A DNA stretch of 39,535 bases from IMG/VR virus record IMGVR_UViG_3300045921_000261, positions 1 to 39,535 of that record; one strand, 5' to 3'. The notes under the pieces are model-generated. The model worked only from the letters and a program-made list of their open reading frames with translations. It was not told the DNA's origin and made no database searches. This document shows, piece after piece, positions 87 to 38,052 of this stretch (position 1 is its first letter; each line of letters starts with the position of its first letter). This stretch comes from a virus. A program made the position numbers and the translations under genes.

Positions 87-1316
87 TCACTGAACCCTTC
101 CGGACCCAAAAACTCGCGCTGCCATCTGCTCGATGACGCTCTTGCGGCGACGCAAATCCTCCGCCGTATAGTGCATCGTCATCGCCCCACGAGAGTGGCC
201 CATCATCGCGAGCCGGTCACTCATGGCCACCGCAAGCTGGTCGGCCATAGTAGCATGCGCCCGTCGAAACGAATGCCATCCAAGCCACGGCATTCCAAGC
301 CGAACGCCAGTCGGCCGCAAGACGCGGTTGAAAAGGTTGTGCAAATCCACTGGCTTTCCGGTTCGCCCGGCGAAAACCGGTCCGTTCGGACGCTCGATCT
401 GCTTCAGGTACGCAAGAACAATGTCAATCAGCGGGATCGTGCGGCGCCTGGACGGCTGCTTGACGCTGCCGTACTCCCCGTTCGCCCACTGCCAGCGCAC
501 CAACAGGGAGCGTGGTGGTATCACTTCATCTTCGTGTTGCCGATACTCGTCTGTGAGGTTTACGTACTCCCACTTCAGTCCGGCAATCTCCGCGCCGTTC
601 ATACTGGAAAACGAAGCCAGCATCGCGACGCCTCGCGCTGGGTCAGGCAGCACGGAAAGCACTTGCGAAAGCTGCTCGACCGTAGGCGCGTGCCGGGGCT
701 TTGTGTGCATGCACTCGGGCAATGTCACCAGAGCCGCAGGATTGCGTCCCGTGAAGCATCCGACTCGCTCAGCGTAGGAAAACATCGCAGAAATGACGAC
801 GTTCGTGTTCCGCACTGTCTTTGTGGAAAGGCCCTTGGCCCGCATTGCGCTGAGGGCTTTCTGCACGTCTGTTACGCCGACGTCACGCATTCGCATGCTG
901 CCCAGAAACGGAAGAATGTGATTCTTGAGAAGCGAGGCGTATTGAAGACGGGTGTTTTTCTTCAGCATGTCCACATGCCCCGGAAGGAACCGCTGTGCAA
1001 CGAACTGCGCCACGGTCAGCACTGATTGCGGTGTCGCGTTGTTCTGATCCAGCTTGCAGAGGTAAAGGTCCCACGCGAGTCGGCGAGCCTGCTTCTCGGT
1101 CAGATGGTGTGGTCCGCGAGCCGGGCCAAGCGCGACAAGCTTTGACCAACCACGTCGCAGGGTTCCATCTGCGCTGATTTGATCTTCCCGCCATCGCAGC
1201 TTCCACTGTCCGGATTCCACGCGCAACTCGCCGCATTGTTGAAGTCGTTTCCTGGCCATATGAGGCGAGGATACGGGAAACAATGCGATCGGGCGGACGG
1301 CAGCGCCAACAGTCAT
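87..1316 (-). CDS. int: Tyrosine recombinase / phage integrase
   Basis: Site-specific recombinase expected to integrate and excise the phage chromosome. I start it at 1316 (409 aa) because that ATG overlaps the upstream stop as ATGA and follows a purine-rich AAGGAAG; a longer reading frame to 1547 would run through two upstream genes. An N-terminal SAM-like core-binding domain lies at about residues 95-190 and the catalytic domain at 205-400. Visible catalytic residues are K286 in VKQPSRRR, H348 and R351 in WHSFRR, H374 in MGHSRG and Y383 in MHYTAED. The usual first catalytic Arg (R-x-x-E) is Asn240 in MNGAEIAGL. It is the last gene of the early operon, so its expression is tied to the early promoter. 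Confidence 0.9.
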   Translation of the reverse strand: MTVGAAVRPIALFPVSSPHMARKRLQQCGELRVESGQWKLRWREDQISADGTLRRGWSKLVALGPARGPHHLTEKQARRLAWDLYLCKLDQNNATPQSVLTVAQFVAQRFLPGHVDMLKKNTRLQYASLLKNHILPFLGSMRMRDVGVTDVQKALSAMRAKGLSTKTVRNTNVVISAMFSYAERVGCFTGRNPAALVTLPECMHTKPRHAPTVEQLSQVLSVLPDPARGVAMLASFSSMNGAEIAGLKWEYVNLTDEYRQHEDEVIPPRSLLVRWQWANGEYGSVKQPSRRRTIPLIDIVLAYLKQIERPNGPVFAGRTGKPVDLHNLFNRVLRPTGVRLGMPWLGWHSFRRAHATMADQLAVAMSDRLAMMGHSRGAMTMHYTAEDLRRRKSVIEQMAARVFGSGRVQ

Positions 1317-1528
1317 GCGGCCACTTCCTTCTTGACTTCCGAAACAGCACGAGGCAGAAGACGCCACCAAGTCCGCGCTGCGCGATGCGCCTGAAGCAAC
1401 GCTAAGCCGATGCCGGCGCGAACTATGATCAGCGCTCGAATGCCCTGGAGTAGCGGGTCTACGCCGGTTAGCACCCAAAACAAAAACAGGGTAAAAAGTA
1501 CGGCGAACAAGGCGAACCCCAACATCAC
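1313..1528 (-). CDS. Small membrane protein, unknown function
   Basis: 71 aa. The N-terminal third is strongly hydrophobic (ALFAVLFTLFLFWVLTGV, about residues 6-23), predicting one membrane helix, and a second moderately hydrophobic segment (ALIIVRAGIGLALL) follows before a basic tail. Both ends overlap neighbours by the four bases ATGA: the ATPase stop upstream and the integrase start downstream. A GGAGG sequence precedes the start at good spacing. The tight coupling is the main reason for accepting it as a gene. I do not recognise a family. Confidence 0.7.
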   Translation of the reverse strand: MMLGFALFAVLFTLFLFWVLTGVDPLLQGIRALIIVRAGIGLALLQAHRAARTWWRLLPRAVSEVKKEVAA

Positions 1529-2874
1529 TTGACCTCCATCGGGCCATGCGTCACCCGCGTCACCAGAATCTGAAGCCCAGATTGCTCCGCCGCTGCTTCA
1601 AACGCGGCAAACGTTTCTTCGTCCAAGCATTCCGCGTTGTCCATGACCACCAGCGGCAGTTCACCCGCACGAAGACGTGCGACGCGCAAAGCTACCTGCA
1701 CCTGCTTCGCGCGATTCAACCGCTCAAATGGGATGCCGTCGACAAAAACAGATGGGCAGTTTCCGTCCGTGCGAATCTCCACGCCAGGAATGGGCAGTTT
1801 GCCAGCCAGTTCAGCGGCGAGCGCATCCAGGGAATTGATCTGCTCCGTCAATTTTGCTGAGTGCTGGCTGAGTACTTCGGCCTCGATCAATGCCTTATCC
1901 GCAGCGGCCCTCAGGCCTGCCGCACGCTCCAGCTCAGCTGTCACCTGCTCCAAGCGGGCCACTTTTTCCAATAAGCCCTGCCGCTCTTCGCGAAGCGGCG
2001 TAGCTTCTCTCGTAAAGAAAGCATTGGCTTCGTTGACGCAGTCAGCAATGTCGCGATCCCTTTGCGCCTGCCTGGCCGCGCGCTTTTCCCGCAAAAGTGC
2101 GATCTGTTCATCGATGGCGGCCATATCCGAAGCCGCCTGGTTAATCAGGTTTTGCTTTTTTGTTTCGACCTCCCGGCGAACCTTAGCCTCTAGCTGTGCA
2201 AGCGTGGCACTGATTTCCGTCTCACGCTCGTGCGCCGCGACAAGATCCGAACCGACCTTCGCCGCGTCGTCCGCGGGAAGGTTTCTCATGATTTCCTCAG
2301 CGTGCGAGCGCTTCCCACGGGCGGAACCATTGATGCCGGTCCGCTCATCATAAAGGCGCGCCCGGAGGCGCCCTAGAGCCTCTAGGGCGTGGCCCTCACA
2401 ATCAGAGGGCTCGACAGTGACGCCGCATCTCTCCAAAATCTGCTCTGGGGTTACCTTGAGGGGCATTGCCTCGATCAGTAACCGACAGCGTTCCCGCGAG
2501 TCTGCCAGCATAAACTTGACCGGGTCGGCGGACACGCCGTCGATCAGCATTTCCACCAGGGCCTTCGGTGGTAACTTTGCTTTCAGCCCGTCTGGCCCGG
2601 TAGCTGCCAAGTCAGCCCTTTTGCCGTTACGCGGAATGCGTTTACGGATCGTTGTCTCATCGTCCAGGACCAGGACAACCTCGCCGGCATCCGCTCCCTT
2701 GCGAACCAGTGTGGCGTCATAGCCGCCACCGATCAGAGACTTCAGCGCTTCGATGACGCTTGTTTTGCCTGCGCCATTACCTCCGGTAATGAGCGTTACG
2801 CCAGACGGCCGCAACCGGATCTCGGCGGCTTCCACGCCAAGAATGTTCGATATTCTCAACAGGGATGCCTTCAT
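1525..2874 (-). CDS. SMC/SbcC-like AAA ATPase
   Basis: 449 aa. A Walker A motif GGNGAGKT lies at about residues 31-38, a long Glu/Arg/Ala-rich coiled coil occupies about 190-330, and a C-terminal Walker B reads LVVMDNAECLDEE. This is the split-ATPase layout of RecF/SbcC/SMC proteins in miniature. The signature-loop region reads LNRAKQVQVALRVA rather than LSGG-type. Phage versions are commonly found beside exonucleases and are thought to help in recombination or repair of DNA ends. I start at ATG 2874, which overlaps the upstream stop as TGATG; a GTG at 2883 in the same frame is the alternative. It sits two genes from the YqaJ-like exonuclease, suggesting joint action. Confidence 0.8.
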   Translation of the reverse strand: MKASLLRISNILGVEAAEIRLRPSGVTLITGGNGAGKTSVIEALKSLIGGGYDATLVRKGADAGEVVLVLDDETTIRKRIPRNGKRADLAATGPDGLKAKLPPKALVEMLIDGVSADPVKFMLADSRERCRLLIEAMPLKVTPEQILERCGVTVEPSDCEGHALEALGRLRARLYDERTGINGSARGKRSHAEEIMRNLPADDAAKVGSDLVAAHERETEISATLAQLEAKVRREVETKKQNLINQAASDMAAIDEQIALLREKRAARQAQRDRDIADCVNEANAFFTREATPLREERQGLLEKVARLEQVTAELERAAGLRAAADKALIEAEVLSQHSAKLTEQINSLDALAAELAGKLPIPGVEIRTDGNCPSVFVDGIPFERLNRAKQVQVALRVARLRAGELPLVVMDNAECLDEETFAAFEAAAEQSGLQILVTRVTHGPMEVK

Positions 2875-4136
2875 CAAAACCACCCCGCTCGCGTGTCGAC
2901 GTCTGTCGCAACAACTGATGCAGGCGCAACTACTGCTTGGTTGGCATGCTCCGCAAGCTGTTTGCGCAAGGCATCTGTTTTTGCGCGCGTGGCGGCCGCC
3001 GCATTGCGGCTCATTGCGTCGACGGCTACATCTGCGCTAGCCTCATCAGGGTAAAACTCAGCAGCGATCATAGCCGCTTGAGATGCCTCGTCCTCATCGC
3101 CTTCGTCGATAAGTTCCAGATCATCAACCGGACCAGCAATTCGCCGCGGTGCGGTTCCCATCGCCTCTCGAAACTGAATCGACTGCTCCAGAAGTTTCTG
3201 CTTCAGGTCGGCTACAGTTTCTGCGCGAAATTCCAGTGAGACACCGTACTGCTTAACGGCTTGTCCGTTATGCCGTGTCAGGTATGGACGCAGGACCATG
3301 CGGAACGGGACACCAGAGAGATATCCCTGCCGCCAGTCGCCACGTCCGGTTAGTGTCCGGAAAATCTGAAGCGCGGAGTATACCTGCGTGATCGAACGAA
3401 ATCCGCTGGTGTGAAAGTACGCCGTACCGCCCAGTCGGATCTTGTTTGCCAATTGAAGCTTCAGATCTCCGGACGGCTTGCACGGTGACGGTTGCTCCTT
3501 ATTGCCGCTGGTCACCGGCCTTGAAAAGCGGCAGCCATTCGACCAGCACGAATTGTGCAGAATAACGTATCGCGATCCGGCAGCATCGGCGAGCGCGGCT
3601 GCTTGCTTCTCTTCGGCCGTTGCGGACTTGTCCTCCGCAACAAACGATACTAGCCGTTGCGCGTCAACGCCGTTTCCTCGGCACCGAAGCTGAGTTGCAC
3701 TCCACATAGCAAAGGACGTCTCGAACGGATCGTCGGACAGGAAAATCACATCAATCTCCGTCGGCATTGGGCCGTGCGCCTCGATCGCGTCGAAGTCCGG
3801 CTCCATCCCTTCTCCAGACGGTCGGCCAAACGTAAAAAACGGCAGCTTGCGCGGGTAGTTCGCTTCTGGCGCATTCGGCAAAAACTCCCGATATGCTTTC
3901 TCCGCTTCAGCTCGGGTAGCGTACTGGTGCCGCTTCGCATCCTTGCCTACACCGACCTCGATCCACCACTTGACCATCCCAGGAGTGTCAGTAGCCTGCG
4001 TGTAGACGAGCAGCGCTTTTCCCTTCGGGGCGCCGATCGATATCTTGAGAATTTTGGGCTCCCGTATGATTGGGCTGCCACTCAAGTCGTGCGTTACGCC
4101 GTACAACCGCGAAAAGTCAATCTGTGAGTCCGTCAT
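2874..4136 (-). CDS. phiC31 gp3-like metal-binding protein (recombination directionality factor family)
   Basis: 420 aa. The central region has the pattern seen in phage proteins annotated as hydrolase/metal-binding or recombination directionality factor: FLSDDP near 132-137, CRGNG at 152-156, then C197, C202 and C219 followed by KPSG, LGGTAYFHTSGFRSI and LSGVPFRMVL. The four Cys suggest a zinc site. The C-terminal 100 residues are acidic then Ala-rich and probably disordered. In phiC31 and Bxb1 the family directs serine integrases, yet here the integrase is a tyrosine recombinase, so a general DNA-recombination role is also possible. It starts 13 bases after the exonuclease stop with AAGGGA as ribosome site. 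Confidence 0.65.
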   Translation of the reverse strand: MTDSQIDFSRLYGVTHDLSGSPIIREPKILKISIGAPKGKALLVYTQATDTPGMVKWWIEVGVGKDAKRHQYATRAEAEKAYREFLPNAPEANYPRKLPFFTFGRPSGEGMEPDFDAIEAHGPMPTEIDVIFLSDDPFETSFAMWSATQLRCRGNGVDAQRLVSFVAEDKSATAEEKQAAALADAAGSRYVILHNSCWSNGCRFSRPVTSGNKEQPSPCKPSGDLKLQLANKIRLGGTAYFHTSGFRSITQVYSALQIFRTLTGRGDWRQGYLSGVPFRMVLRPYLTRHNGQAVKQYGVSLEFRAETVADLKQKLLEQSIQFREAMGTAPRRIAGPVDDLELIDEGDEDEASQAAMIAAEFYPDEASADVAVDAMSRNAAAATRAKTDALRKQLAEHANQAVVAPASVVATDVDTRAGWF

Positions 4137-4149
4137 AAAGTGTTCCCTT

Positions 4150-5091
4150 TCAGGCCGGATAAACTCTCAAGCTACGAACGGTGGATGGCGCCACCGTGTA
4201 ACCCTTCCGATAGGTAGCTCGGTAGGTGATTCGAGTGCCGTTCGCCCGCACTGCCTGCCTATCGCCCAGTGCCGACTTTAGCTGTGCCCCAAGTGACTCC
4301 TTCAACTCGCGAGCTTCCGCCTCGATGCGCTGCGCGTCCGCGTACTCCTTGGCCAGCTGCTCCAGGGACGGATCGTCTTCAAATTCGCCTGGCGCATCGT
4401 CGATCAGCGCCAGCAGCGCCGAACCTTGACAGGACTTCCGATAGCAGCATTTAGCGCAACGCCGGTCGCCAGGCGCTAGGCGCTCCGGCATCTCGCCGGA
4501 TTGCACCATGGCCCATGTGCGAATCTCGGCGTCCATCAGGTTGCGAATTAGCACATCATCGCGCTCGACATCCCACCAGAGCAGTTGCCAACCGTCCGGC
4601 CAGAACACCGCATAGGAACCCCACTGCCAGCCGGTAACCATCAGGCCGTGTTGCACCTGCAAGATGTAGTCTTCGGGAATTCCGTCACGCTTGATTCGGT
4701 GAAACGACTCCCGCCCCACACATTTGATTTCCAGGTAACCCGGCCGGACCAGTCCGCCCTGGCCAGAGACTTCTTCCACGCGGCGGTCCATGTGGACGCC
4801 AAGAAATTCGTAGTAATTGTGGCGCTGAGTGCCGACAACGCGCACCACGCGATTTGTCGCTCGCGCATACTTGTCGGCGATCAACGCCTCCATCTCGCGG
4901 CCCCGCTCCATCGCGGCGGTCTCTTCGTCCTCGTAATCCGGAATGACGCCGCGCTTATCCATTACCAGCCGCCGCCGGCATCCATATCCGATGTTCATCG
5001 CCGCGGCGGCATCCGATCCGCCGATCATCGTCCGGCGCTCAGCAAGAAAATTCGAACGCGCAGTGCGGCGATCATCAGCGGCAGTTATCAT
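4150..5091 (-). CDS. YqaJ-like PD-(D/E)XK exonuclease with Cas4/AddB-type cysteine pattern
   Basis: 313 aa. GGSDAAAAM at 24-32, RGREME at 63-68, D102, EIK at 121-123 and QVQHGL at 145-150 are the motif series of YqaJ/lambda-exonuclease nucleases, which resect DNA ends for single-strand annealing recombination. Beyond the nuclease core there is C212-x2-C215-x5-C221, plus C38 near the N-terminus; this is the spacing of the iron-sulfur ligands in Cas4 and AddB. A helical, Glu/Ala-rich tail follows. It overlaps the upstream gene as ATGA. No RecT, Erf or Red-beta partner is visible; the ATPase or gp3-like protein may take that place. Confidence 0.82.
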   Translation of the reverse strand: MITAADDRRTARSNFLAERRTMIGGSDAAAAMNIGYGCRRRLVMDKRGVIPDYEDEETAAMERGREMEALIADKYARATNRVVRVVGTQRHNYYEFLGVHMDRRVEEVSGQGGLVRPGYLEIKCVGRESFHRIKRDGIPEDYILQVQHGLMVTGWQWGSYAVFWPDGWQLLWWDVERDDVLIRNLMDAEIRTWAMVQSGEMPERLAPGDRRCAKCCYRKSCQGSALLALIDDAPGEFEDDPSLEQLAKEYADAQRIEAEARELKESLGAQLKSALGDRQAVRANGTRITYRATYRKGYTVAPSTVRSLRVYPA

Positions 5092-5291
5092 CGTTTCTCT
5101 TTCTGTGGCCGCGAGCGCTGCGCTAAGTCGGTAATGTGCGTGATTGCGACGTGCAGTATCGCTTTCAGCTGGTGCGGGTCGCCTCCCGTTAGCTCTAGCC
5201 CGTAACGAATGACGTCCTTTGCTAAGGTGTGATGACCGTCCATCTGGGCGATACTCATTGCCAACTCATGGCTTGTCTGGATCGCGCTCAT
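5088..5291 (-). CDS. Small hypothetical protein (67 aa)
   Basis: 67 aa, His-rich in the middle, ending in a basic tail (QRSRPQKEKR). It is accepted because GAGGG lies six bases before its ATG, its start shares a base with the upstream stop (TAATG) and its stop overlaps the exonuclease start (ATGA). No domain recognised. Its position immediately before the exonuclease suggests an early or recombination-linked role, which is inference only. Confidence 0.6.
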   Translation of the reverse strand: MSAIQTSHELAMSIAQMDGHHTLAKDVIRYGLELTGGDPHQLKAILHVAITHITDLAQRSRPQKEKR

Positions 5292-5632
5292 TATTGACCC
5301 TCACGATTAGCGAGGGCGGTGACGCAAGGAGAATCGTCACCGCCGCTCGCTTGCTCGCCAGGCCGAGCGCCGGCAAGATGGACGGGGCTGTTTTTGATCG
5401 GAAGCGGGCGTTTCCTCCCCCGCTTACTCCTTTCACTTTGATCAGCCCCGGTAAGCCGTCTCCATACTGTGGCCACGTAGTCCGCCCGGCTAGGGTCATC
5501 CTCTTTGTCAAGCGGAATTCTTCGCCGATTCACCGTGACTCGGTTACCGTTCTGAACATCGTGAGTTTTACTCAGCGACGATCCAGAAAAACTACACTTG
5601 CCGTCAACGTAGAACGAATCGTCGCGTTTCAT
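5291..5632 (-). CDS. Small hypothetical protein (113 aa)
   Basis: 113 aa, charged, with an Asp/Tyr-containing N-terminus (MKRDDSFYVDGKC) and a basic RGRKR patch in the second half. I start it at ATG 5632, which overlaps the stop of the preceding membrane protein gene as ATGA; the same frame is open further upstream to 5806, but that part is a shadow of that gene. The downstream junction is TAATG. No family recognised. Confidence 0.55.
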   Translation of the reverse strand: MKRDDSFYVDGKCSFSGSSLSKTHDVQNGNRVTVNRRRIPLDKEDDPSRADYVATVWRRLTGADQSERSKRGRKRPLPIKNSPVHLAGARPGEQASGGDDSPCVTALANREGQ

Positions 5633-5835
5633 CTCGCCACCAGCCTGATAACAAGAACAACCACCACGCCCGCCAGCAACGATGCGATTGACGCTGCACA
5701 CGTCAGCATCTTGCGCGATCTGGCCGCGTCTTGCTTGGCCTCTATCAGCGCGTACATGGCCGCAGCTGGATGTCGATTTGCAAGAGCCGTCTCGCAATCC
5801 CGCCATCCCTGCTCGTAGCTGTCAATTTCAATCAT
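5629..5835 (-). CDS. Small C-terminally anchored membrane protein
   Basis: 68 aa. A hydrophilic N-terminal half (MIEIDSYEQGWRDCETAL) is followed by one clear hydrophobic helix near the end (MLTCAASIASLLAGVVVVLV) and a short RLVAR tail, so a tail-anchored or single-pass protein is expected. GGAGGGG precedes the start, and both ends overlap neighbours as ATGA. Function unknown; small membrane proteins in early phage operons often have exclusion or host-takeover roles, but nothing in the sequence proves it. Confidence 0.65.
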   Translation of the reverse strand: MIEIDSYEQGWRDCETALANRHPAAAMYALIEAKQDAARSRKMLTCAASIASLLAGVVVVLVIRLVAR

Positions 5836-6161
5836 TTCCCCTCCCCGAGCGACGAGCTAGGCATCGGGGCAACCGGAATGGTGATTTCGCCCTCGGATTT
5901 CAGCTCTTCAACGGTGACCACGCAGCCCACGCCGGAGGGAACAAGGAATGTTCTGGCTGGTACCCGCGTTAATGCCTCTTGCTCTTCCTTCCCACACCGC
6001 ACGTGGATTTGATACAGACGAACTGAACCATCGGCTGGTGGGTATGCGGTTACGATGAGCAGATCCAGGGCGCCTGGCAGCGCAATACGCATCGGCGTGA
6101 CGATTGGATTGGCAAATGCAGTGCAAGCCAGCACCGCCACAGATAATTTACGAAAAGTCAT
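5832..6161 (-). CDS. Small exported protein (signal peptide)
   Basis: 109 aa. The N-terminus MTFRKLSVAVLACTAFA is a short Sec-type signal peptide with probable cleavage after AFA. The mature part is about 90 residues with two Cys (HVRCGK and GVGCVV) that could form a disulfide in the periplasm. AAGGAG lies seven bases before the ATG, one of the best ribosome sites in the operon. The stop overlaps the next gene as ATGA. I recognise no family. Confidence 0.65.
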   Translation of the reverse strand: MTFRKLSVAVLACTAFANPIVTPMRIALPGALDLLIVTAYPPADGSVRLYQIHVRCGKEEQEALTRVPARTFLVPSGVGCVVTVEELKSEGEITIPVAPMPSSSLGEGK

Positions 6162-6194
6162 CCGGCAACTCCTTTTTTGACCCTTCCCTGAAAA

Positions 6195-6551
6195 TCAGGC
6201 AGCGAACCGGTTGACAGTGGCCGCAGCCAAAGTAGGCGGTGGAAACTCCGAGAGATCCTGCCAAACCCGTATGGCAATCAGCCGATATTCCTCGTTCAGA
6301 TGAACCCGGAATCTCATCCGCGCGATCTCCGACTGCCGCTTGTGAATCTCGTTGAACCCAAAAATCACCAACTGAATCTGACGCTTCGTCACCCTGGCTC
6401 TGCGGGCTATCTCATCACCGGGAACACGGGCCTGCCACATGCGGTAGATTTCCCAACGAACTGAATCTGGCGGCAGTACAACGGTTTGCAATTTTTTTTG
6501 GACTATCTGTCCTGGAAAACGCACAACATTGTTCAAGATGTTTGCCTCCAT
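6195..6551 (-). CDS. Small helical protein with helix-turn-helix-like segment
   Basis: 118 aa. Residues about 30-62 (SVRWEIYRMW, then GDEIARRARVTKRQIQLVIF) look like a helix-turn-helix as in small phage regulators or terminase-small-like proteins. The rest is helical and basic. It begins nine bases after the stop of the preceding gene. A DNA-binding role in controlling the early operon or in recombination is plausible. Confidence in the gene is good, in the function low. Confidence 0.6.
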   Translation of the reverse strand: MEANILNNVVRFPGQIVQKKLQTVVLPPDSVRWEIYRMWQARVPGDEIARRARVTKRQIQLVIFGFNEIHKRQSEIARMRFRVHLNEEYRLIAIRVWQDLSEFPPPTLAAATVNRFAA

Positions 6552-6560
6552 TTCTCTGCA

Positions 6561-6827
6561 CTACAACGCGGCGCGCGTTCCGGCCGATCTCTTAAACTCG
6601 TCGAATCCGGGGCACTCCATCTCTGCCAGTTTCATTTCCAGCCGCAGGGAAACAGTGTTCCCAACGCGATCAAACACCCGATCCTTGACTTGCTGTTGCG
6701 ACAGCCCGGTTTGCCCAGCCAGCGTACGGATGACGTTCGGATTTTCGAGCAGCCACGCCGTTCTCTTGGCATTCAGCTCTGCCATCGCGTCCTTGCACTC
6801 TTTCCGAAACCACCCTGCGACGTTCAT
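6561..6827 (-). CDS. Small hypothetical protein, possible HTH
   Basis: 88 aa, starting MNVAGWFRKECKDAM. The middle segment LAGQTGLSQQQVKDRVF resembles a helix-turn-helix. The start at 6827 is chosen because it overlaps the stop of the RHH-like gene as ATGA; the open frame extends to 7052 but would cross that gene. Second gene of the early operon, where regulators are common. No family recognised. Confidence 0.6.
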   Translation of the reverse strand: MNVAGWFRKECKDAMAELNAKRTAWLLENPNVIRTLAGQTGLSQQQVKDRVFDRVGNTVSLRLEMKLAEMECPGFDEFKRSAGTRAAL

Positions 6828-7015
6828 TGCCCTTTTCTCCCGCGGCCGATGTAAAGGCTCACGGCCAGCGTTACCAGGTCTTGAACTGTCATCTTCCTCG
6901 CTTGCGCCTCCTCCTTCAGGCGTGAATGAAGCGAATACGGCAGCCGGACATTGACCTGGACCCGAATCCGATCCAAGTCTGGTACGATGCTGCTTGCTCG
7001 CTTGCTTGCTATCAC
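6824..7015 (-). CDS. Ribbon-helix-helix (CopG/Arc-like) DNA-binding protein, first early gene
   Basis: 63 aa. After a basic N-terminal arm, IRVQVNVRLP forms the expected beta ribbon and LHSRLKEEAQARKMTVQDLV the two helices of an RHH fold; RGRKGQ ends the protein. Such proteins bind operators as dimers and often repress their own promoter. The start is a GTG at 7015 with no Shine-Dalgarno. It lies seven bases after a -10 element, so a leaderless transcript is predicted. A 13-bp palindrome lies in that promoter, making this protein or the divergent one at 7079 the likely ligand. Confidence 0.7.
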   Translation of the reverse strand: MIASKRASSIVPDLDRIRVQVNVRLPYSLHSRLKEEAQARKMTVQDLVTLAVSLYIGRGRKGQ

Positions 7016-7022
7016 GTGGTCG

Positions 7023-7052
7023 AGTATGGGGGGAAATTCCCCAAGCTGTCAA
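7023..7052 (-). promoter_or_regulatory. Early leftward promoter
   Basis: Read on the minus strand: TTGACA (7052-7047, full consensus), an 18-base spacer, then CATACT (7028-7023). The predicted start is at about 7016-7015, on the GTG of the first gene. The spacer holds a palindrome that a repressor could use to block RNA polymerase. Confidence 0.6.
7030..7042. promoter_or_regulatory. Candidate operator palindrome
   Basis: GGGGAAATTCCCC is a perfect inverted repeat with a single central base. It lies wholly between the -35 and -10 of the early promoter and in the 63-bp gap between two divergent RHH-like genes, the position expected for a switch operator. Confidence 0.55.
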
Positions 7053-7078
7053 GAGGAAACTTCGCCGAGGAATGCTAA

Positions 7079-7384
7079 ATGGCTGATATAAGGGCGAATC
7101 GAGTTCCGGATGAACTGTTGGATCGCATCAAGCACGCGATCGTTAACCGCAAGGTGTCTTCGATCCGTGAAGCCGCCATCGAAGCATTTGAGGAGTGGCT
7201 GGCCAAGGGAGACGACGTGTCCAATCGAAAGCCGATGATTCCAGAAGAAGCGCTTGCTTACCTGGATTTCTTGGAGAATGGAGATCCCGACGCAGTTCGC
7301 ATTGTCCGCGAGTTTGTCTGGAACCACGCCAGAAGGAAACCAGTACTCCACAGTACTTCAGCTTTAATGAAAAAAGGTCGATAG
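7079..7384 (+). CDS. RHH-like regulator, divergent from the early operon
   Basis: 101 aa. NRVPDELLDRIKHAIVNRKV followed by SSIREAAIEAFEEWL has the helix spacing of CopG/Arc or antitoxin-like RHH proteins, and an acidic middle leads to a C-terminal helix and basic tail. GAGGA lies eight bases before the ATG. Its position opposite the early operon suggests a repressor that maintains lysogeny or an anti-repressor. No toxin-like partner follows. The RHH assignment rests on pattern only. Confidence 0.65.
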   Translation: MADIRANRVPDELLDRIKHAIVNRKVSSIREAAIEAFEEWLAKGDDVSNRKPMIPEEALAYLDFLENGDPDAVRIVREFVWNHARRKPVLHSTSALMKKGR

Positions 7385-7399
7385 GTATGATGATTAAGC

Positions 7400-7621
7400 A
7401 TGCTCATCGAAATGCGCCAGATTGTGACCCAGGCCGACATCGAGAACGTGTTGGTGGCTCGACGCCAACTGCGTCGTGCGCAAAGGCTGGTAACGCGCCT
7501 GGAGGGAACCCTGATGGCCAAGTTGAGCCGGGGTGCAGAAACGGAGCCTGGACCACTCGATGCGAAGCTGGCCGCAAGGGTAAGGAATGGCGCCGTGGAG
7601 CACTATGTCGAGATCTCGTAG
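7400..7621 (+). CDS. Small hypothetical protein (73 aa)
   Basis: 73 aa: helical, with an Arg-rich helix (VARRQLRRAQRLVTRLE), then GAETEPGPLDAKL and a short strand-like end (VEHYVEIS). This layout resembles small phage proteins of unknown function found in early regions. It starts 16 bases after the RHH gene. Another frame from ATG 7387 is open through it to 7959, but that frame looks like a shadow here. The ribosome site is weak. Confidence 0.5.
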   Translation: MLIEMRQIVTQADIENVLVARRQLRRAQRLVTRLEGTLMAKLSRGAETEPGPLDAKLAARVRNGAVEHYVEIS

Positions 7622-7662
7622 CCGCCGCGGCGGTACTCGTGGCCACATCCTGCGGCCCAGCC

Positions 7663-7959
7663 ATGCCGGAGCAAAGCAAGCCGTTTTCTTCGCTAGCGCC
7701 CGGTCAGGTGATCAATGCGAAATACGCGGCCCCGTGCGCACCAACGAAGGAAGGAATGGATGTGATTGTGAAATGGATGGCGCGCGGCGAACAGGAAGAG
7801 GCCGCACTGGCCATGATCCAGCACCGCGCCGTGGTGATTCAGGAAGGCCAGCTGGTGAGAGTCATTGATCCAGGCATCATCCGGACAGAGATTCGCCCAA
7901 GCGGATCGCTCGTGACGTGTTTTGTGCCGCGGGAAATCGTATCCGCGTGGATTCGCTAG
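7663..7959 (+). CDS. Small protein with possible lost lipoprotein leader, uncertain start
   Basis: 98 aa from ATG 7663; the frame is open from 7387 without another convincing start. The codons just upstream would encode RDLVAAAAVLVATSCG, which looks like a short lipoprotein signal with a lipobox Cys, but no ATG, GTG or TTG introduces it in frame. An ATG at 7605 is one base out of frame with it. The C-terminal part (RVIDPGIIRTEIRP, FVPREIV) looks like well-structured coding sequence. Either a one-base frameshift disrupted the leader, or translation starts at 7663. The stop overlaps the convergent tail gene by four bases. Confidence 0.5.
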   Translation: MPEQSKPFSSLAPGQVINAKYAAPCAPTKEGMDVIVKWMARGEQEEAALAMIQHRAVVIQEGQLVRVIDPGIIRTEIRPSGSLVTCFVPREIVSAWIR

Positions 7960-8648
7960 CTCACCCGAACCATGAGAACGGAACCGTTACGGTATAGTCC
8001 ACCAACAGGCACGCCTCCAGCCGAGGCCGCGCTGTCATTGGCGTAGTTTCCGAGCCCCGACAGCAAGATGTAGCCGCCCGAATTGATGGTTAATGGATTG
8101 ATTGTCGTCGGCGAAGTGGAGAAAATGCGCAATGATCCAGAAAGAACATCGATCGACCAAGGCCTGGTGTTGTCGTCCAGATCGATTTGGCCGCCCTCGG
8201 CACTGTCAACTCGTCGAAAGAAAACAGGGGACTCCAGCCCGATGACAGTACACATGCCGGTCGCGCGATCAATGCGCAAAGCGGTATCGATCAGTGTCCC
8301 GGCGTCATTGAAGCGCTCAATGATAAAGTTGGATCCGGCGTTGGAACCTGACTCGGCGATCGCCCCTAGGCCAACACGAAATCGATTCGCGCCGGCGGTT
8401 TGAAGTGCGATGGAGCGCGACGTCCCAGCGGATCCAGTGATGTCGATCGACGACCCAGGAACGCCGGAAAAAGTTGCCCTCCGATCTGTGCTGAGAAAGA
8501 CATTGGAAAGCACATGCCCGTCGCCATTGACGTTATCTGCCCACGTTCCGAACTGGGCAAGAAGCGTTTCCATCAAAACCTGGCTGAACCAACGGGCGGT
8601 ACGCGGCGGAACAGGGGCTTCGAGGTCGCCGTATGTGAGCCACGCCAT
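7956..8648 (-). CDS. Phage tail fibre / tail tip protein
   Basis: 230 aa, last gene of the late operon. A short N-terminal head (WLTYGDLEAPVPP) is followed by beta-rich, Gly/Ser/Thr-rich sequence typical of trimeric fibres, with a segment rich in RIDRATG and LSGSLRIFS-like strands. The end GGVPVGGLYRNGSVLMVRVS is a common C-terminal block in phage fibre proteins. Probably a distal fibre or receptor-contact part. It ends convergently against the rightward gene before it. Confidence 0.7.
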   Translation of the reverse strand: MAWLTYGDLEAPVPPRTARWFSQVLMETLLAQFGTWADNVNGDGHVLSNVFLSTDRRATFSGVPGSSIDITGSAGTSRSIALQTAGANRFRVGLGAIAESGSNAGSNFIIERFNDAGTLIDTALRIDRATGMCTVIGLESPVFFRRVDSAEGGQIDLDDNTRPWSIDVLSGSLRIFSTSPTTINPLTINSGGYILLSGLGNYANDSAASAGGVPVGGLYRNGSVLMVRVS

Positions 8649-8652
8649 TTTC

Positions 8653-8886
8653 TTAGTCGCCCTCCTCTTTCTTCATTGCTACAAGCTCATCTCCGTTGAG
8701 CATGAACTGTGCAAACTCATCTTCTGTTGTTCCGGCAAAAAGAGTTCTTGCCGCAACCTCCAGCGCCTCCAGGCGAACCTGACGTGCAATCGCCAACTTA
8801 TTGGCTTCCTCCTGGATTCCATGAAGAATTGCCATTTGCGCAGCTGTTAGCTTGAGACGGGCTGCTTCTTTCATCTTCTGTTCCAT
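8653..8886 (-). CDS. Small helical tail-region protein (77 aa)
   Basis: 77 aa, nearly all helix, Ala/Glu/Gln-rich (LEALEVAARTLFAGTTEDEF), ending in acidic GDELVAMKKEEGD. It lies four bases upstream of the fibre gene start and one base after the preceding stop, all in the same direction. It might be a fibre assembly chaperone by position, but no family is recognised. Confidence 0.55.
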   Translation of the reverse strand: MEQKMKEAARLKLTAAQMAILHGIQEEANKLAIARQVRLEALEVAARTLFAGTTEDEFAQFMLNGDELVAMKKEEGD

Positions 8887-8887
8887 T

Positions 8888-9145
8888 CTATGCCTCTGGT
8901 TCCTGTTCTGGTTCTCGGACGATCGACACCCGCGAGGCGATAGCGTTGAGAATGGCTTGACGAGCTGCCTCTACCTGCGCTAGGGCCGCCTGAGTCGATT
9001 CGTCCGGGTAGTCGAGGGCAGCCTGTTGCGCAAGCTTCACAGCAATATTGAGAATCGTATCTTCGAACGGCGGCAAGCCGCGAGCAGCCCGCCCAGCGTC
9101 GATAACGGATGTATCGTAGTCGAATGTGATCCTGTAAGTCGGCAT
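8888..9145 (-). CDS. Small hypothetical tail-region protein (85 aa)
   Basis: 85 aa. A beta-like start (MPTYRITFDYDTSVID) is followed by helical Ala/Gln-rich sequence (AALAQVEAARQAILNAIASR) and an acidic end. It begins immediately after the stop of the 658-residue fibre protein, with no spacer, so it is translationally coupled. Function unknown; probably virion or tail assembly related. Confidence 0.55.
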   Translation of the reverse strand: MPTYRITFDYDTSVIDAGRAARGLPPFEDTILNIAVKLAQQAALDYPDESTQAALAQVEAARQAILNAIASRVSIVREPEQEPEA

Positions 9146-11122
9146 TTAAGCACCTATTAAACCGTGGCCTGCGTTCGCGTGAAGGTCATCAATGAGCGCC
9201 TTGACGCGCTCCGCGAGTTGCGGCAACGTCACCGTCGCAGTGTCGAAGGACGATCGTGTTGCCGTTCCAGTTGCAGTGCTCCATCCTGTTCGGCGAGTGA
9301 CTAATACTGTTTGGCCGGATAGCTGAATAAACGGAGAAGAGCCCCCGTTAACAAAAAACCTGCTCGTGCCAGCTGGATCTGCTAAAGACAGAATTGAATC
9401 GGTAGTGTTTGGCACGATCCCAATAAAGCCTCTACTAATGCCGTTCCGGCTTATCGAAAGAAGTCCTGGCGCCATAGCCGAACCGTTGGTTCCGGAAACG
9501 GATGAGCCGTTTAACACTGTTCCTTCGTAAGCGATGAAATCGTTACTAAGATACCCTTCCCATGCCTTAGAGGAATCCACCAATCGAATCATTTTCCCGC
9601 CCGATGCGTTGGGGTTAAGTGTCAACGAAACGGAACCGCTGGTGAGGGTTATCACTGCATCGTCAATCGAAAGATTTCCGCTAGAATCTGCACGAAGCTT
9701 TCCAGTGGCATAGCTGGATCCGCCAACGCGCATGGTTTGAAACCATGCGCCACTATTGCCTCCATCCGTGCCTATCCACCCTATGTTCACCCCGAGGCTG
9801 TCGAATACACGAAACTTGCCCGGCTTGCCGCCGCCACCGCCGACATCGATTTGGTTCGAATCCAGCTTATCTGTCGACACACTCCCGGCGAGAAGCCTAC
9901 CACCGGCGATCTGGCCCACGCCTGGCGTGATCGTGACTCCCATTTGTTTTGGTGTCGTGCCATCAACAATCGAATTACGGCGGTTGTTCGTGTCTTGCGA
10001 GACGAACCAAACCGTGTACGTGATAGCCGAACCCATGGGAAACCAATCCGTAGCGGCGCCAGGGCCGACGAATGGGCCAAGCTCAACATCAGCCCCAGAT
10101 GCGGGCCGGAGCACGAGGTAGATACCGCCCCATCGAGAATCACCGGGTGGCGTGAATTTTGGCACCAGCCGCCACCGAGCGATACCGTCGACGGTATGCC
10201 CTGTTTGCACCTCTACGCTCGCACCAGCCACGTTCGCCGCATACTCTACGCCAGGGCCGCCAACCTGGGGTGACACGACAACGTGGACATGCTTCGTGTG
10301 GCCGGGAACAATGGTGTTTTCCCGCCCACTCGTATCAAACGGGTTGAGATAAATCGTGAACGGCGCCGCAGCGCCAACCGGCCATAGCGGAGACTCGTAG
10401 CGAAGATCCTCCCGATCCACAGAAGCGTGGGATGTTCGTGCTCCGTCGGAATACTCAATCCACACCTGATATCCGCCCAGTTGTCCATAGCGTGGTCCGG
10501 CATCGTTTGTCCAGGTGAAGCCGAATTGCCAGTGCTGCTGTCCTCCGGAGTCCGTTCGGTATCGAACGCCATTCACCCATCCATCGGATCCGTTCAGGGC
10601 AGAAATAGAGGCTGCCTGCGGAGCGCGTTCGTCGCCAACGCCAACCGTCGGTGGAGGTGATGATACGGGTGGCGATACCGTGACATCCACAAACGGCGAC
10701 GAGGGCAATTCGTTCATACGAATTTCCGATCCGCTAACCGCAATGATTCTCCATCGTCGCGTTTCACGCGGTGTCGGATGCATAATCACAAGGGTCCAAT
10801 CCAGAGCGATATGGAAGCGGACACCTTTGGATTGCGGCTGCGCACCGGGCCCTACGTGCGTCGCGTATTCTTCGTCTGCGCCAGCTTCCAAGACGCCATT
10901 GTTGTAGAACGGCACTTCATTGAATCCGCCATCCTGCAAAAACAGATACACTCGGTCGAAATCGCCAAGTGGCGTTGGCGGCGTATAGGGAATGCGTATC
11001 TGCGTCATATCCGCGCCCACGGTCACGACCGGGGTACCGAGCGTGATGTTCCCCAATGTCCCGACGCCGCCGATGCCGCCAACAACTGCGCCCTTTCCAC
11101 CAATGATGATGTAGCCCGGCAC
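9146..11122 (-). CDS. Large modular tail fibre protein
   Basis: 658 aa. The first 400 residues contain repeated Ig/FN3-like beta modules; two related strand ends read TIVPGHTKHVHVVVSP and SIVDGTTPKQMGVTITPG. Next comes GRLLAGSVSTDKLDSNQIDV, a fibre-type linker, then a Gly-rich stretch and a beta-rich tip with FRVFDSLGVNIGWIGTDGG. The C-terminal 50 residues form a short helical end (LAERVKALIDDLHANAG). This is the organisation of central or side tail fibres in siphoviruses. It directly follows the hub gene. Confidence 0.75.
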   Translation of the reverse strand: MPGYIIIGGKGAVVGGIGGVGTLGNITLGTPVVTVGADMTQIRIPYTPPTPLGDFDRVYLFLQDGGFNEVPFYNNGVLEAGADEEYATHVGPGAQPQSKGVRFHIALDWTLVIMHPTPRETRRWRIIAVSGSEIRMNELPSSPFVDVTVSPPVSSPPPTVGVGDERAPQAASISALNGSDGWVNGVRYRTDSGGQQHWQFGFTWTNDAGPRYGQLGGYQVWIEYSDGARTSHASVDREDLRYESPLWPVGAAAPFTIYLNPFDTSGRENTIVPGHTKHVHVVVSPQVGGPGVEYAANVAGASVEVQTGHTVDGIARWRLVPKFTPPGDSRWGGIYLVLRPASGADVELGPFVGPGAATDWFPMGSAITYTVWFVSQDTNNRRNSIVDGTTPKQMGVTITPGVGQIAGGRLLAGSVSTDKLDSNQIDVGGGGGKPGKFRVFDSLGVNIGWIGTDGGNSGAWFQTMRVGGSSYATGKLRADSSGNLSIDDAVITLTSGSVSLTLNPNASGGKMIRLVDSSKAWEGYLSNDFIAYEGTVLNGSSVSGTNGSAMAPGLLSISRNGISRGFIGIVPNTTDSILSLADPAGTSRFFVNGGSSPFIQLSGQTVLVTRRTGWSTATGTATRSSFDTATVTLPQLAERVKALIDDLHANAGHGLIGA

Positions 11123-18107: not shown

Positions 18108-19988
18108 TCAGAATGCCCCCACCAACGGCGTAGCGGCGTTCCAGACCTTGACCGCTCCGATTTGCCCACCGTTCTTGCCTCGCGTCGCATACTTCAGATT
18201 GCGTGGCGCGTATCCCGCCCAAACCCAATCGCGGGCGCGGATGTGGTCGAATCGCGGGTCCCAATCCGCCGTGTTCTTCTTCCGCCACTCCGCCCGCAGC
18301 GCCGCGAACGATGAGCCAGTATCGTCCCCCGCGACGAACGGAGTATTCGTCACCCAAGCGTAGAACTTCCCGATGCCCCGAAAGGTCGGGTCAGCTATCT
18401 GCATGTCTTCGTTCAGGTCGTTCGCGCCACAGGTGCCGATTGATTTGATACCGGAGTAGCCGTTACCGAGTGATCCGACAGCGAAGTTACCCGCCCCGTT
18501 GTAATCGCACTCGTCCATCAGGTTGTCTACGGTGGTGCCTAAAGGGTAGGCTTTGGGCCGCAGCACGCCAGTTCCGGTGTCATAAAGCGCATTGGAGGTT
18601 AGTTGCTTGAACATACCCGCGAATCCCGGCTCGGTTTCCGAGAACCTCAGAGAGCACTCGCGGATATTACCAGTGTTGTTATATATATAAGCCTCTTGCG
18701 TTGGCCCACCTAGCGCCGAGACGAGACAAGAAAAGTAAGTATGTCCCGCCAACAAATTGAAGCGCGTGATTTGCGGATATGGCGGCGACGAACCGCCAGA
18801 CGCGAACGTTAAAACGTCGCCCGCGTCACTGTCATATACCGTCCGCAACGCCTCAAAAACGTTGTACTCCCGAAGCGTGCCGTTTGGGTCAATGGTATTG
18901 GTGCCCTGGAAGTGCGGGTTTTCCGCCAGTGAAGCGTAGTAATTACCCCGGATCGTCCCGAATCCATTCCTGACCCCGCCACTGGTCGCGCGGCTCAGAA
19001 TGAAGTTATCCTCCTGAACATAAGGAAGAATGGTTGAGACACTGCCAGAGCCGGGGCTCCAGACCGCACCAAAGCCTGACGTAGTGCCCGGCGCGGCGAG
19101 TAGAATGTTGCGCCGCGCCACCAGCCCAGCACAAGTTAGGCAGCCAAGGCCGCGCTCCAGGTAGTTGTCCTCGAAGACCAGTCGCCCAGTGGTGAAAGCG
19201 TTATTGCCGGACACCACAAACGGGTTCTTTTCCGTCTGACTATCTTGGTTGATGACATCAATAGCCCGGCTGTTACGGACTTCGAACACCGCCGCCGCGT
19301 TCATCGTGCTCTCTACTCGAACCTGGGAAGAGTCCTCAAGCGAGCAGTAGTTCCACACCCACGAGAAGTTACTGCCCGCGGGGTTGAACCAGATAGCCAG
19401 GTTCGACGTCGATCCAAGTCGACGGATACGCCCGTAGGTGCAATTGACCATGCCAGTGCCCGTCGTGCTCGCGCCGCGCCAGATCCGGCCATTCGGTCCG
19501 CCCTCCGTCGAGCGAAACTCGGGCATGTTGGCAAAGCCCGTTCCGTTCAGGTTTACCTTGGCGTTCGCCTGGTTAGTGGCTGACCCCACGCGTAGGATAT
19601 AAGACTGCCCCGATACGCTCCCGTCGATCTCGAACACGCCGCCCTGCTCGATGTTCAGCGGCGCATTGTTCAGCTGGCCATTCCCGCGCATCCGCAAGAG
19701 ACCTCCCGCGTCGATGCGCAGGTTGCCCTGCACCACCAGAACGAACGTCGTTGTGTCTGCCGGGGATGTGCCGAACGTTCGCTCGTCCGTCACAGTCACG
19801 GTATGGCCGCTCGCGATCGTTGTCTGCGCCGTTGATGTGCCGGGAATCCCGCCGCCGCACGAGGTCCAGGTGGAAGCCGCGTTCCAGTTGCCGCTCGCCG
19901 CGGACGTGCAAGCTAGGGCAGATCCGCTATACGCGAGAGCGCCCAGAAGAATGAGACGACCGAGCCGACGATAAATACTGTGAACCAT
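18108..19988 (-). CDS. Exported right-handed beta-helix protein (G8/pectate-lyase-like)
   Basis: 626 aa from ATG 19988, preceded by GAGGGG and 13 bases after the previous stop; an ATG at 20021 in frame is weaker. MVHSIYRRLGRLILLGALAYSGSALA is a clear Sec signal peptide. Mature sequence begins with SGNWNAASTWTSCGG, GIPGT and SGHTVTV, a G8-like block that precedes parallel beta-helix folds. Repeated short strands with Asn ladders (FEDNYLERG, RGNYYASL, REYNVF) run through the middle. Such folds are common in polysaccharide lyases and phage depolymerases. A signal peptide on a late phage gene is unusual. No catalytic residues could be assigned. Confidence 0.7.
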   Translation of the reverse strand: MVHSIYRRLGRLILLGALAYSGSALACTSAASGNWNAASTWTSCGGGIPGTSTAQTTIASGHTVTVTDERTFGTSPADTTTFVLVVQGNLRIDAGGLLRMRGNGQLNNAPLNIEQGGVFEIDGSVSGQSYILRVGSATNQANAKVNLNGTGFANMPEFRSTEGGPNGRIWRGASTTGTGMVNCTYGRIRRLGSTSNLAIWFNPAGSNFSWVWNYCSLEDSSQVRVESTMNAAAVFEVRNSRAIDVINQDSQTEKNPFVVSGNNAFTTGRLVFEDNYLERGLGCLTCAGLVARRNILLAAPGTTSGFGAVWSPGSGSVSTILPYVQEDNFILSRATSGGVRNGFGTIRGNYYASLAENPHFQGTNTIDPNGTLREYNVFEALRTVYDSDAGDVLTFASGGSSPPYPQITRFNLLAGHTYFSCLVSALGGPTQEAYIYNNTGNIRECSLRFSETEPGFAGMFKQLTSNALYDTGTGVLRPKAYPLGTTVDNLMDECDYNGAGNFAVGSLGNGYSGIKSIGTCGANDLNEDMQIADPTFRGIGKFYAWVTNTPFVAGDDTGSSFAALRAEWRKKNTADWDPRFDHIRARDWVWAGYAPRNLKYATRGKNGGQIGAVKVWNAATPLVGAF

Positions 19989-20001
19989 GCTTTCCATCCC
20001 C

Positions 20002-21879
20002 TCATTGCAGTACGTAGCCATGCCTGACCACTCGTCCGTGCCCGAGCATGTAGCCGAGCATGTTGAGCGCGACGGTCGTGTAGTTCTGGCCCCGGATCTT
20101 GCCCGAATCTTGGTTTCCGAAATTCAATGACGCCATCGACGCAAGGACGTCATGAGCGACCGTCTGATACGTCGAATCCCCCGTGTAGTAGTAAAGAAAA
20201 GCCGCCGCTGGCCCGATCGAGATAGCAGTCAGAAGATTCGATTCATAATTCGTGGACGAACTTGTGCAGTTGTACTCGCAGATGAGTCGATTCGAAGTGA
20301 TCGGATACAGCGTCCGCGCCCTCAACGATCCCGATGGAGGTAAGTACCAGTTGGCGATGAAGTGATCTGTGAAATCCTTGATCCACCGCATGGGTCGCGG
20401 ATCGCGCGTCAACCCGTTCCCGGCGCCGCTTCGCTCGTCCTGCGACCACTCGTAGTAGTCCATGAGCGCGAGTGTCGCCAGGCCCGACATCCACGTTTGA
20501 AACTGCTGACCGTGCGCTACGTTAGGGATCGTCATCTCATCGAGAGATTGTCCGAGTACCGAGACCGCATCTTCAAGAGACGCGAGTAGAGCAACCCAGT
20601 TCGACACGCCACACTCGTTTGTCATCCGGCGAGCCACCCATAGGCTCGCCGCGTTACATGCCCGAAATGCCTGAATCGTGTTGATCACAGCGTAGGCGTT
20701 GTCTCGCAACGATGCGCCTTGCGCCTTGACCGGATTCGAGTAGTTGCTGAGAAACTGATTCAGGTTTAGGAAAACGGCCCGCCGCCATTGCGGAAGCTCC
20801 GGCCCCATGATCGCCAACCCGGTCGTAAAACGTTGATAGGACTCGATCCCGGCATTGGCTAGGATGCGCCCCACATACCACTGGGCTATGGTTTGCGCGC
20901 ACGCTCGAAACTCCGGCTTCTCCACGATTCGAGCGCCTTCCCAAAACCACGCCTGGCCCTGGTAGTACCAGACGCCATTCTCGCCGCTACTGCTGAGTGA
21001 GAGCGCATTGGGCGAGGCGATCGCCGGGTTCGAGTAGACAATCTGTCCAGTCGCTTCGTCGCAAATCTTACGGCTCGTGTCAGAGCCGTTCGCTTGCTGC
21101 CGCCACTTGGTTCGGAGAGCCGTTCGCGTGCTCGCTGCGATCTCCTGAAACGACGACGGATAGGACAATGAAACGGGCACGATGTCTTGGATCGTGATCG
21201 CGATCGTGTGCACCCGGATGATTTCGCCGTCGGTGTATCCATCGCCATCCAAGTGCTTGATCGACGTGATCACGATGTTTGCCGCGCCGAGTGGCGCATT
21301 GCTGGCAACCGCCAAGTCGATGTTCATGTGCGATGCCGAGTTGCCTGTAATCAGCCACGCCTGCTTTGCGGCGTTCCACGCCAGCGCCGCTCCGTGGTCA
21401 TAGCGCGGATTACGCAACAGAGTCACGCCCTGAGGCAACGTGATTGCGTGCGCTGTAAACACGCTTGAGTTCGATCGCCGTACACCGACCCGGAGATCGG
21501 TCCCGCCGGTGGTAAGTGGTGACTGCCTCGTAGTCTCGCCGCAAGACCCCCATTGCGTCTTGACATAAAACGGATTGTTCGTCGAGCAGCGATTATAGAT
21601 AAAGAACGGATGAAAACCTTGCGGTAGATTATTGGACCGACTGACGAACCGGAGCGAAGAAGTAGTGGAATGCGGCGTCGTCGCTGTCACTAGGTCCGTG
21701 TCTACGTCTACCGAGTCAACCGCATAGCCGTTCACCCATACTGGATGTAGCCTTAAGTGTGCCGAATAGCCACGATAGACGCGGCCCGCGCCCAGTCCGG
21801 TGATGTAGGGCTGGATGACTACCTCGACTTGCGAGAAACACGCGCTGGTAATCAGCAGAAACGCAGCAAGTCGGATCAT
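20002..21879 (-). CDS. Exported large protein, beta N-domain plus helical toroid-like domain
   Basis: 625 aa from ATG 21879, with GGAGG before it and an ATGA overlap with the previous stop. MIRLAAFLLITSACFS is a short signal peptide. About 210 residues of beta-rich sequence follow, with two Cys (NRCSTNN, WGSCGE). From about residue 260 the protein is helical with spaced aromatic motifs (VWYYQGQAWFWEGA, MSGLATLALMDYYEW, SNLLTAISIGPAAAFLYYYTG). This spacing recalls alpha/alpha toroid glycan lyases or glycosidases, but no family is certain. It sits between the beta-helix protein and fibre-like exported protein. Confidence 0.65.
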   Translation of the reverse strand: MIRLAAFLLITSACFSQVEVVIQPYITGLGAGRVYRGYSAHLRLHPVWVNGYAVDSVDVDTDLVTATTPHSTTSSLRFVSRSNNLPQGFHPFFIYNRCSTNNPFYVKTQWGSCGETTRQSPLTTGGTDLRVGVRRSNSSVFTAHAITLPQGVTLLRNPRYDHGAALAWNAAKQAWLITGNSASHMNIDLAVASNAPLGAANIVITSIKHLDGDGYTDGEIIRVHTIAITIQDIVPVSLSYPSSFQEIAASTRTALRTKWRQQANGSDTSRKICDEATGQIVYSNPAIASPNALSLSSSGENGVWYYQGQAWFWEGARIVEKPEFRACAQTIAQWYVGRILANAGIESYQRFTTGLAIMGPELPQWRRAVFLNLNQFLSNYSNPVKAQGASLRDNAYAVINTIQAFRACNAASLWVARRMTNECGVSNWVALLASLEDAVSVLGQSLDEMTIPNVAHGQQFQTWMSGLATLALMDYYEWSQDERSGAGNGLTRDPRPMRWIKDFTDHFIANWYLPPSGSLRARTLYPITSNRLICEYNCTSSSTNYESNLLTAISIGPAAAFLYYYTGDSTYQTVAHDVLASMASLNFGNQDSGKIRGQNYTTVALNMLGYMLGHGRVVRHGYVLQ

Positions 21880-34851: not shown

Positions 34852-35084
34852 AAAGTTGCGTAGACGGACCGCCGGGCGGCCGTGGTTCCAGCCGCCAGAG
34901 CCGCTATCTTTGACTCAAGTTCCGCTCGGTACTTCTGCAAATCGCTTAACTGAGCCGCCTGATAACGAACGCGACTTCCGTCGAGCGCCTCTACTTCAAC
35001 GACGCTCGCACCAACCATCAAGCGGTGAATAGCCGCCTCTACCTCCGCCAGCCTCGACTGCGCTTCACTTAGGGTCATAGCCAC
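34848..35084 (-). CDS. gpW-like head-tail joining protein
   Basis: 78 aa, mainly two helices with a beta hairpin (SVVEVEALDGSRVRYQAA); EAQSRLAEVEAAIHRLMVG opens it and QKYRAELESKIAAL closes the fold. This is the gpW family layout, placed between terminase and portal as in lambda. It overlaps the terminase gene end by ten bases. Confidence 0.78.
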   Translation of the reverse strand: MAMTLSEAQSRLAEVEAAIHRLMVGASVVEVEALDGSRVRYQAAQLSDLQKYRAELESKIAALAAGTTAARRSVYATF

Positions 35085-37467: not shown

Positions 37468-37527
37468 GTAACTAGTCTTTTTGTGCGATAAAGAAACTCG
37501 CGCGCGAGCTACTGCCAGGAAGGACCC
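37468..37527. other. Short gap before terminase
   Basis: No gene. It holds the leader of the small subunit gene and no convincing Shine-Dalgarno. Confidence 0.4.
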
Positions 37528-37881: not shown

Positions 37882-37920
37882 TGGCTCGACTGACGATATT
37901 GTCGCTATCGCGCCCTAGGC

Positions 37921-37942: not shown

Positions 37943-37982
37943 GGCTTACTGAGGCAGCCCTATGTGAGCATCTGTATATCCA

Positions 37983-38011: not shown

Positions 38012-38052
38012 GAACATTTTTGCCAAGTAATGTTTTAGGTTGGCCGAGCTGG

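Follow-up and report, generated by a model that had tools for sequence, protein, structure and literature searches.

The first gene of a leftward operon of recombination and integration genes in this viral DNA encodes a short ribbon-helix-helix (RHH) protein, RHH1, which probably acts as a leaderless Arc-type autorepressor of that operon through an operator placed in the spacer of its own promoter. The DNA analysed, here called the window, comprises an entire IMG/VR virus record (39,535 bp), possibly a fragment. The observed basis of this reading is the RHH fold of the protein, a promoter-like site with its spacing, the order of the genes in the operon and the recurrence of an RHH gene in first position among related phages. 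In the mechanism that we propose, RHH1, encoded at the head of the leftward early operon, would be translated from an mRNA that lacks a leader. It would probably bind the palindrome GGGGAAATTCCCC, which lies between the two boxes (-35 and -10) of the RHH1 promoter, and, once bound, would block RNA polymerase, giving a burst of early expression and then self-repression of the operon.

Organization of the leftward operon

Both the late genes (terminase at 35075-37003, portal, S49 protease, major capsid protein E and tail) and the early genes (87-7015) are read leftward, with the exception of a short rightward stretch at 7079-7959 and of the ORFs at the right end. Two large secreted-looking proteins, of 637 and 700 aa, are encoded among the tail genes at 18108-22104. 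The early region and the start of the rightward stretch hold the following features.

87-1547, minus strand: tyrosine integrase (PF14659, 3e-8; PF22022, 9e-8; PF00589), the last gene of the leftward run
1525-2883, minus strand: AAA_23/SMC-like ATPase (PF13476, E = 2.6e-12)
2874-4136, minus strand: Gp3-like protein (PF18897, E = 1.3e-18; Pfam name recombination directionality factor-like)
4150-5091, minus strand: YqaJ/RecE-like recombination exonuclease (PF09588, E = 4e-25; PHROG 434, E = 7e-48)
6195-6551, minus strand: 118-aa ORF with a stretch that looks by eye like a helix-turn-helix, GDEIARRARVTKRQIQLVIFG, and no significant family match
6561-6827, minus strand: 88-aa ORF that overlaps the RHH1 stop by ATGA (translational coupling)
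6824-7015, minus strand: RHH1, GTG start, 63 aa, Arc/CopG-like RHH protein, first gene of the leftward operon
7023-7052, minus strand: leftward promoter, TTGACA at 7052-7047, 18 bp, CATACT at 7028-7023
7030-7042, no strand: palindrome GGGGAAATTCCCC, which fills the promoter spacer; candidate RHH1 operator
7079-7384, plus strand: RHH2, ATG start, 101 aa, with an RHH-like N-terminus (IRANRVPDELLDRIK...SSIREAAIEAFEEWL) and two further predicted helices
7400-7621, plus strand: 73-aa ORF that follows RHH2; a separate promoter-like site precedes it

The operon runs from RHH1 through several small ORFs to the YqaJ exonuclease, the Gp3-like protein, the AAA ATPase and the integrase, with junctions that are mostly overlaps or short gaps and one interval, 5292-5628, of uncertain gene content. 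This gene order and the family matches bear out the proposal, made in the preliminary description of this DNA, that integration and recombination genes are joined in one operon, which RHH1 heads. The Gp3-like protein, which shares the operon with the tyrosine integrase, has no homologue in the phage collection. The 88-aa ORF matched no family in Pfam or PHROGs and no toxin family, and no ant-like gene was recognisable among the operon ORFs scanned, some of which remain without assignment.

RHH1 as a ribbon-helix-helix protein

By fold and sequence comparison, RHH1 is a member of the RHH (MetJ/Arc) superfamily. Nearly all of the 50 matches listed in a Foldseek search were RHH proteins, the best being ORF56, CopASO, Arc, ParG and CopG, with a top probability of 0.99 at E-values above 0.1 for a single-sequence model with a pLDDT of 70. 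Sequence searches matched RHH1 to CopG_antitoxin in Pfam (E = 1.4e-4, which falls under the curated cut-off), to an Arc-like repressor in PHROGs (5.4e-4) and to ORF56 in the PDB (2k9i, E = 0.014), and a hand-made RHH profile ranked it first among the 418 ORFs of the window. The earlier reading of the left protein as RHH-like is upheld by these results. In the strand VQVNVRLP of RHH1, Q-x-N-x-R is placed as are Q9, N11 and R13 in Arc (MPQFNLRWP), residues with which Arc touches DNA. Searches of viral, phage, plasmid and Acidobacteria sets yielded no close homologue of RHH1. The best Bryobacterales match (L074:614-1668) is an RHH protein encoded directly after a ParA-like ATPase, that is, a ParG-type partition protein.

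The leftward promoter and its palindrome

The divergent ORFs at 6824-7015 (minus strand) and 7079-7384 (plus strand) are separated by 63 bp (7016-7078), within which the minus strand reads TTGACA-N18-CATACT with GGGGAAATTCCCC inside the spacer at 7030-7042; the gene arrangement, the promoter and the placement of the palindrome had all been described before and are confirmed from the sequence. This site is the best promoter-like site in the first 8.7 kb, and a match as good, 4-9 nt ahead of a given position, is found for 0.027% of positions. When 20 other gene starts in the window were tested for a promoter, that of ORF 7400 alone approached the score of RHH1. The CATACT box ends 7 nt from the RHH1 GTG, and the start codon would therefore lie at or next to +1, giving a predicted transcript that is leaderless or nearly so.

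The promoter is a stronger signal than the palindrome. Palindromes with arms of at least 6 number 20 in the window against about 19 expected, a chance level that makes GGGGAAATTCCCC unremarkable by itself. Its position within the 18-bp spacer is mildly unusual: shuffles of the 48-bp promoter region produced a palindrome as tight in 2.1% of cases (p = 0.021). A phage-wide operator or regulon working through GGGGAAATTCCCC was considered and rejected, as no further copy with two or fewer mismatches is present in the window.

Comparison with known RHH regulators

In the immI region of phage P22, mnt and arc diverge over 90 bp and the promoter reads TTGACA-TGATAGAAGCACTCTAC-TATATT, the spacer of which holds the Arc operator; the candidate operator GGGGAAATTCCCC occupies the same position in its spacer. 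The P22 region (X01916) is the closest model for the window, both having divergent small regulator genes and a TTGACA promoter on the arc or RHH1 side. P22 Arc, of 53 aa, is an early self-limiting repressor and has the Q-x-N-x-R strand in common with RHH1. Unlike RHH1, which is predicted to be leaderless and heads recombination and integrase genes with no ant recognised, P22 arc has a ribosome binding site and a leader and controls ant, within a second immunity system.

Autoregulation of this kind has precedents, in that it is common for viral RHH proteins to bind and repress the promoter from which they are expressed (PMC5569661). The small RHH regulators of archaeal viruses, SSV1 F55 and SIRV1 SvtR, act at their own and at other promoters, and SSV1 F55 maintains lysogeny without CI (PMC5569661). 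F55 differs from RHH1 in its archaeal promoters, its tandem ATAGATAG sites and its control of several promoters (PMC5569661), whereas one candidate site is seen here.

RHH genes at the head of related YqaJ-RecT operons

Single-sequence scans of viral contigs for RHH1, RHH2, YqaJ, the integrase and the Gp3-like protein found no close relatives; an alignment search with the YqaJ exonuclease yielded 64 viral loci. Among the closest YqaJ relatives (about 33-36% identity), a short RHH gene stands first in the YqaJ-RecT run wherever the upstream DNA sufficed. The RHH proteins of these loci, 42-53 aa in length, are of three types.

Type A, METKMLQVRLPEALH...: twelve contigs, divergent from the terminase gene
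Type B, MQKRNVLIKLSPEAH...: fourteen contigs that include the start, several of them behind tail genes related to window 7956-11122
Type C, MKDGMIKLQAPIPEALQ...: the Bryobacterales genome contig L017 and viral contigs L075 and L103

In types A and B, the RHH start codon follows 5-7 nt after the end of a promoter-like site that ranks in the top 0.15-1.3% of positions; type C has a weak promoter (top 12% of positions). Since the RHH gene comes first in all three types and the promoter is close in A and B, a leaderless or near-leaderless RHH gene at the operon head is a recurring layout, and by sequence the window would represent the same layout with a fourth, different RHH protein. Like RHH1, the related genes (L075-L103, L126 and L017) are the first of their operon and have their start codon just after the -10 box; behind them lie small membrane-protein-like ORFs and then YqaJ. 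Unlike the window, the related loci have no divergent RHH partner and carry other inverted repeats, and the conservation of the palindrome for which a comparison had been suggested was not seen, GGGGAAATTCCCC not being common to the related phages. RHH1 itself aligns with the type A protein over 28 residues only, at 39%. The layout may have been inherited once within this YqaJ clade, and the RHH types need not be independent. Bryobacterales prophages that share the tail and terminase genes, and viral contigs with a related terminase, have late genes alone in common with the window and hold no RHH pair. At L064:5151-19978, in a Bryobacterales genome, large unrelated genes come one after another behind the related tail module and are maybe a defence island.

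Within type B, strand residues and promoter repeat vary together, as expected if each RHH protein reads its own promoter (autoregulation), in a sample of two subtypes only. B1 proteins (MQKRNVLIKLSPEAH) occur with the repeat GGTTAGA-N14-TCTAACC, in small variants, around the -10 region, and B2 proteins (MEKRNIAISLSPEAH) with CATGCT-N8-AGCATG, which spans the -10 region and the start codon. The consistent differences between the two proteins are mostly in strand residues 2-9, where B1 has V-L-I-K and B2 has I-A-I-S, with L7A and K9S at presumed DNA-facing places. The B1 inverted repeat stood out from shuffles in L076 and L086 (p 0.002-0.014) and less so in L081 (0.08); those of types A, B2 and C each fell within the shuffle range, leaving B1 alone as significant.

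RHH2 and the rightward stretch

RHH2, which faces RHH1 across the gap and has a positive coding score, may be an RHH protein, a likeness first seen by eye. Its model (mean pLDDT 64) has helices at residues 11-22, 29-43, 56-66 and 71-85, two of them at places that fit an RHH strand-helix-helix; the residues three and five positions ahead of the proline (N and R) are not hydrophobic, unlike those of Arc. The hand-made profile placed RHH2 second of the 418 ORFs, yet two of 300 of its own shuffles outscored it (one of 300 on repeat). Comparison with the RHH families of Pfam and PHROGs gave no match, nor was there a solved sequence of note, and a search of the model against the PDB returned chance-level helical matches with no RHH protein among the matches listed. 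No homologue of RHH2 was detected in 257 Bryobacterales genomes, in 29 related phage records or in the phage and plasmid collections, and 396 genomes across Acidobacteriota gave no credible match. No good rightward promoter was found for the gene: sites within 9 nt of the start reach the 25% level at best, and the distal ones are weak even at their best.

Three elements of the preliminary description are not supported by these results. Its reading of the right protein as RHH-like found no family, fold or homologue behind it, with a profile score barely above shuffles; a conserved RHH1/RHH2 pair is not borne out, RHH2 being missing from the relatives; and nothing was found for the antirepressor role in the suggested repressor/antirepressor pair. 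By analogy, the closest known layout would be one of two repressors, as in mnt/arc, and not one of repressor and antirepressor.

Further along the rightward stretch, TTTAAT-N17-TATGAT (7363-7400) lies 8 nt before the ATG of ORF 7400-7621 and ranks in the top 0.09% of positions, which makes this ORF a second possible leaderless gene. The frame at 7594-7959 has a lipoprotein-like segment, LVAAAAVLVATSC; ATG, GTG and TTG are absent ahead of it in the likely place, and the next start is a GTG at 7639.

It is quite possible, if somewhat short of an even chance, that RHH1 acts as an early autorepressor and that the rightward genes, namely RHH2, ORF 7400-7621 and the frame that follows, are a small set of cargo (a moron) with no role in a switch. 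Such an arrangement is compatible with the autorepressor reading, the sole difference being that RHH2 would play no part. The RHH2 stretch is oriented opposite to its flanking genes, between the tail and early modules, is not conserved in relatives and has a separate promoter-like site ahead of 7400, all of which suits cargo; it suits cargo less well that a mere 63 bp separates the starts of RHH2 and RHH1, that RHH2 comes second of the 418 ORFs by RHH profile, and that G+C is not sharply different.

We hold it unlikely that RHH2, on the lysogeny side, and RHH1, on the lytic side, both read the 63-bp gap as a two-repressor switch that dispenses with a helix-turn-helix repressor. The divergent genes of 101 and 63 aa over 63 bp invite comparison with P22 mnt/arc, of 83 and 53 aa over 90 bp, and the contig has an integrase yet no HTH_3 domain. 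HTH_3 (PF01381) was absent from all six frames of the contig, which may be a fragment, while 14 of 14 control genomes were positive; the earlier statement that the window lacks a CI/Cro-like repressor is correct as regards HTH_3 in these six frames and as regards the ORFs that were compared with Pfam. A repressor could lie outside the contig ends, because the 39,535-bp record may be a fragment. The same combination, an integrase without HTH_3, occurs in a 58-kb type A contig. If RHH1 were in the place of Cro or Arc, RHH2 would by analogy be in that of CI or Mnt, and the region resembles lambda CI/Cro in having divergent genes over a short operator region and a regulator first in the early operon; unlike lambda, RHH takes the place of helix-turn-helix and the contig has no HTH_3 match. 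Set against the switch are an RHH fold of RHH2 that the searches did not support, the lack of recognisable similarity between RHH2 and P22 Mnt, the lack of a good rightward promoter and the absence of RHH2 from all relatives. The switch is a minority reading because RHH2 has no convincing promoter, demonstrated fold or relative, and we think it quite improbable that a temperate phage here chooses between lysogeny and lysis via nothing more than two divergent RHH repressors, the first standing in for CI and the second, leaderless, for Cro. Were RHH2 a repressor, lysogeny would here be switched with no CI-type protein involved.

A toxin-antitoxin pair of RHH1, as antitoxin, with the coupled 88-aa ORF at 6561-6827 is very improbable, for although RHH1 has weak CopG_antitoxin and BrnA-antitoxin matches and the two genes overlap by ATGA, neither Pfam nor PHROGs links the 88-aa ORF to a toxin family and the RHH genes of related phages precede small membrane-protein-like ORFs and YqaJ.

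Likely host and contig ends

The regulators of phages of Acidobacteria, which are abundant and hard-to-culture soil bacteria, are largely unstudied, and a recurring tiny, leaderless or near-leaderless RHH gene ahead of a YqaJ operon would offer a simple rule for locating early promoters and operators in uncultured phages. The likely host group of the present phage, as distinct from a host assignment, is the Bryobacterales (Acidobacteriota), probably in soil, because terminase matches concentrate in that order (58 of 257 Bryobacterales genomes, best 50-55% identity, against 11 of 396 genomes drawn phylum-wide across Acidobacteriota) and one right-end ORF is akin to Bryobacterales and Sulfopaludibacter proteins. 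A terminase search of the genome-contig collection gave no confirmed match.

One contig, L002, is 99.8% identical to the window over 33683-39484. An exact 30-bp direct repeat, GGTAGTGTCCTAAATCTGCGTTGAACCGAA, lies at 38860-38889 and 39454-39483 and brackets a 0.56-kb stretch with an ORF at 38936-39214. The repeat is also where L002 terminates, and the window itself continues for 52 bp more, into GC-rich tandem repeats; the right end may therefore represent a junction left by a mobile element or by assembly. Between the two copies, at 39325-39358, is a strong, terminator-like inverted repeat, CCCCGCAAGATGTTGCAGCATCTTGCGGGG.
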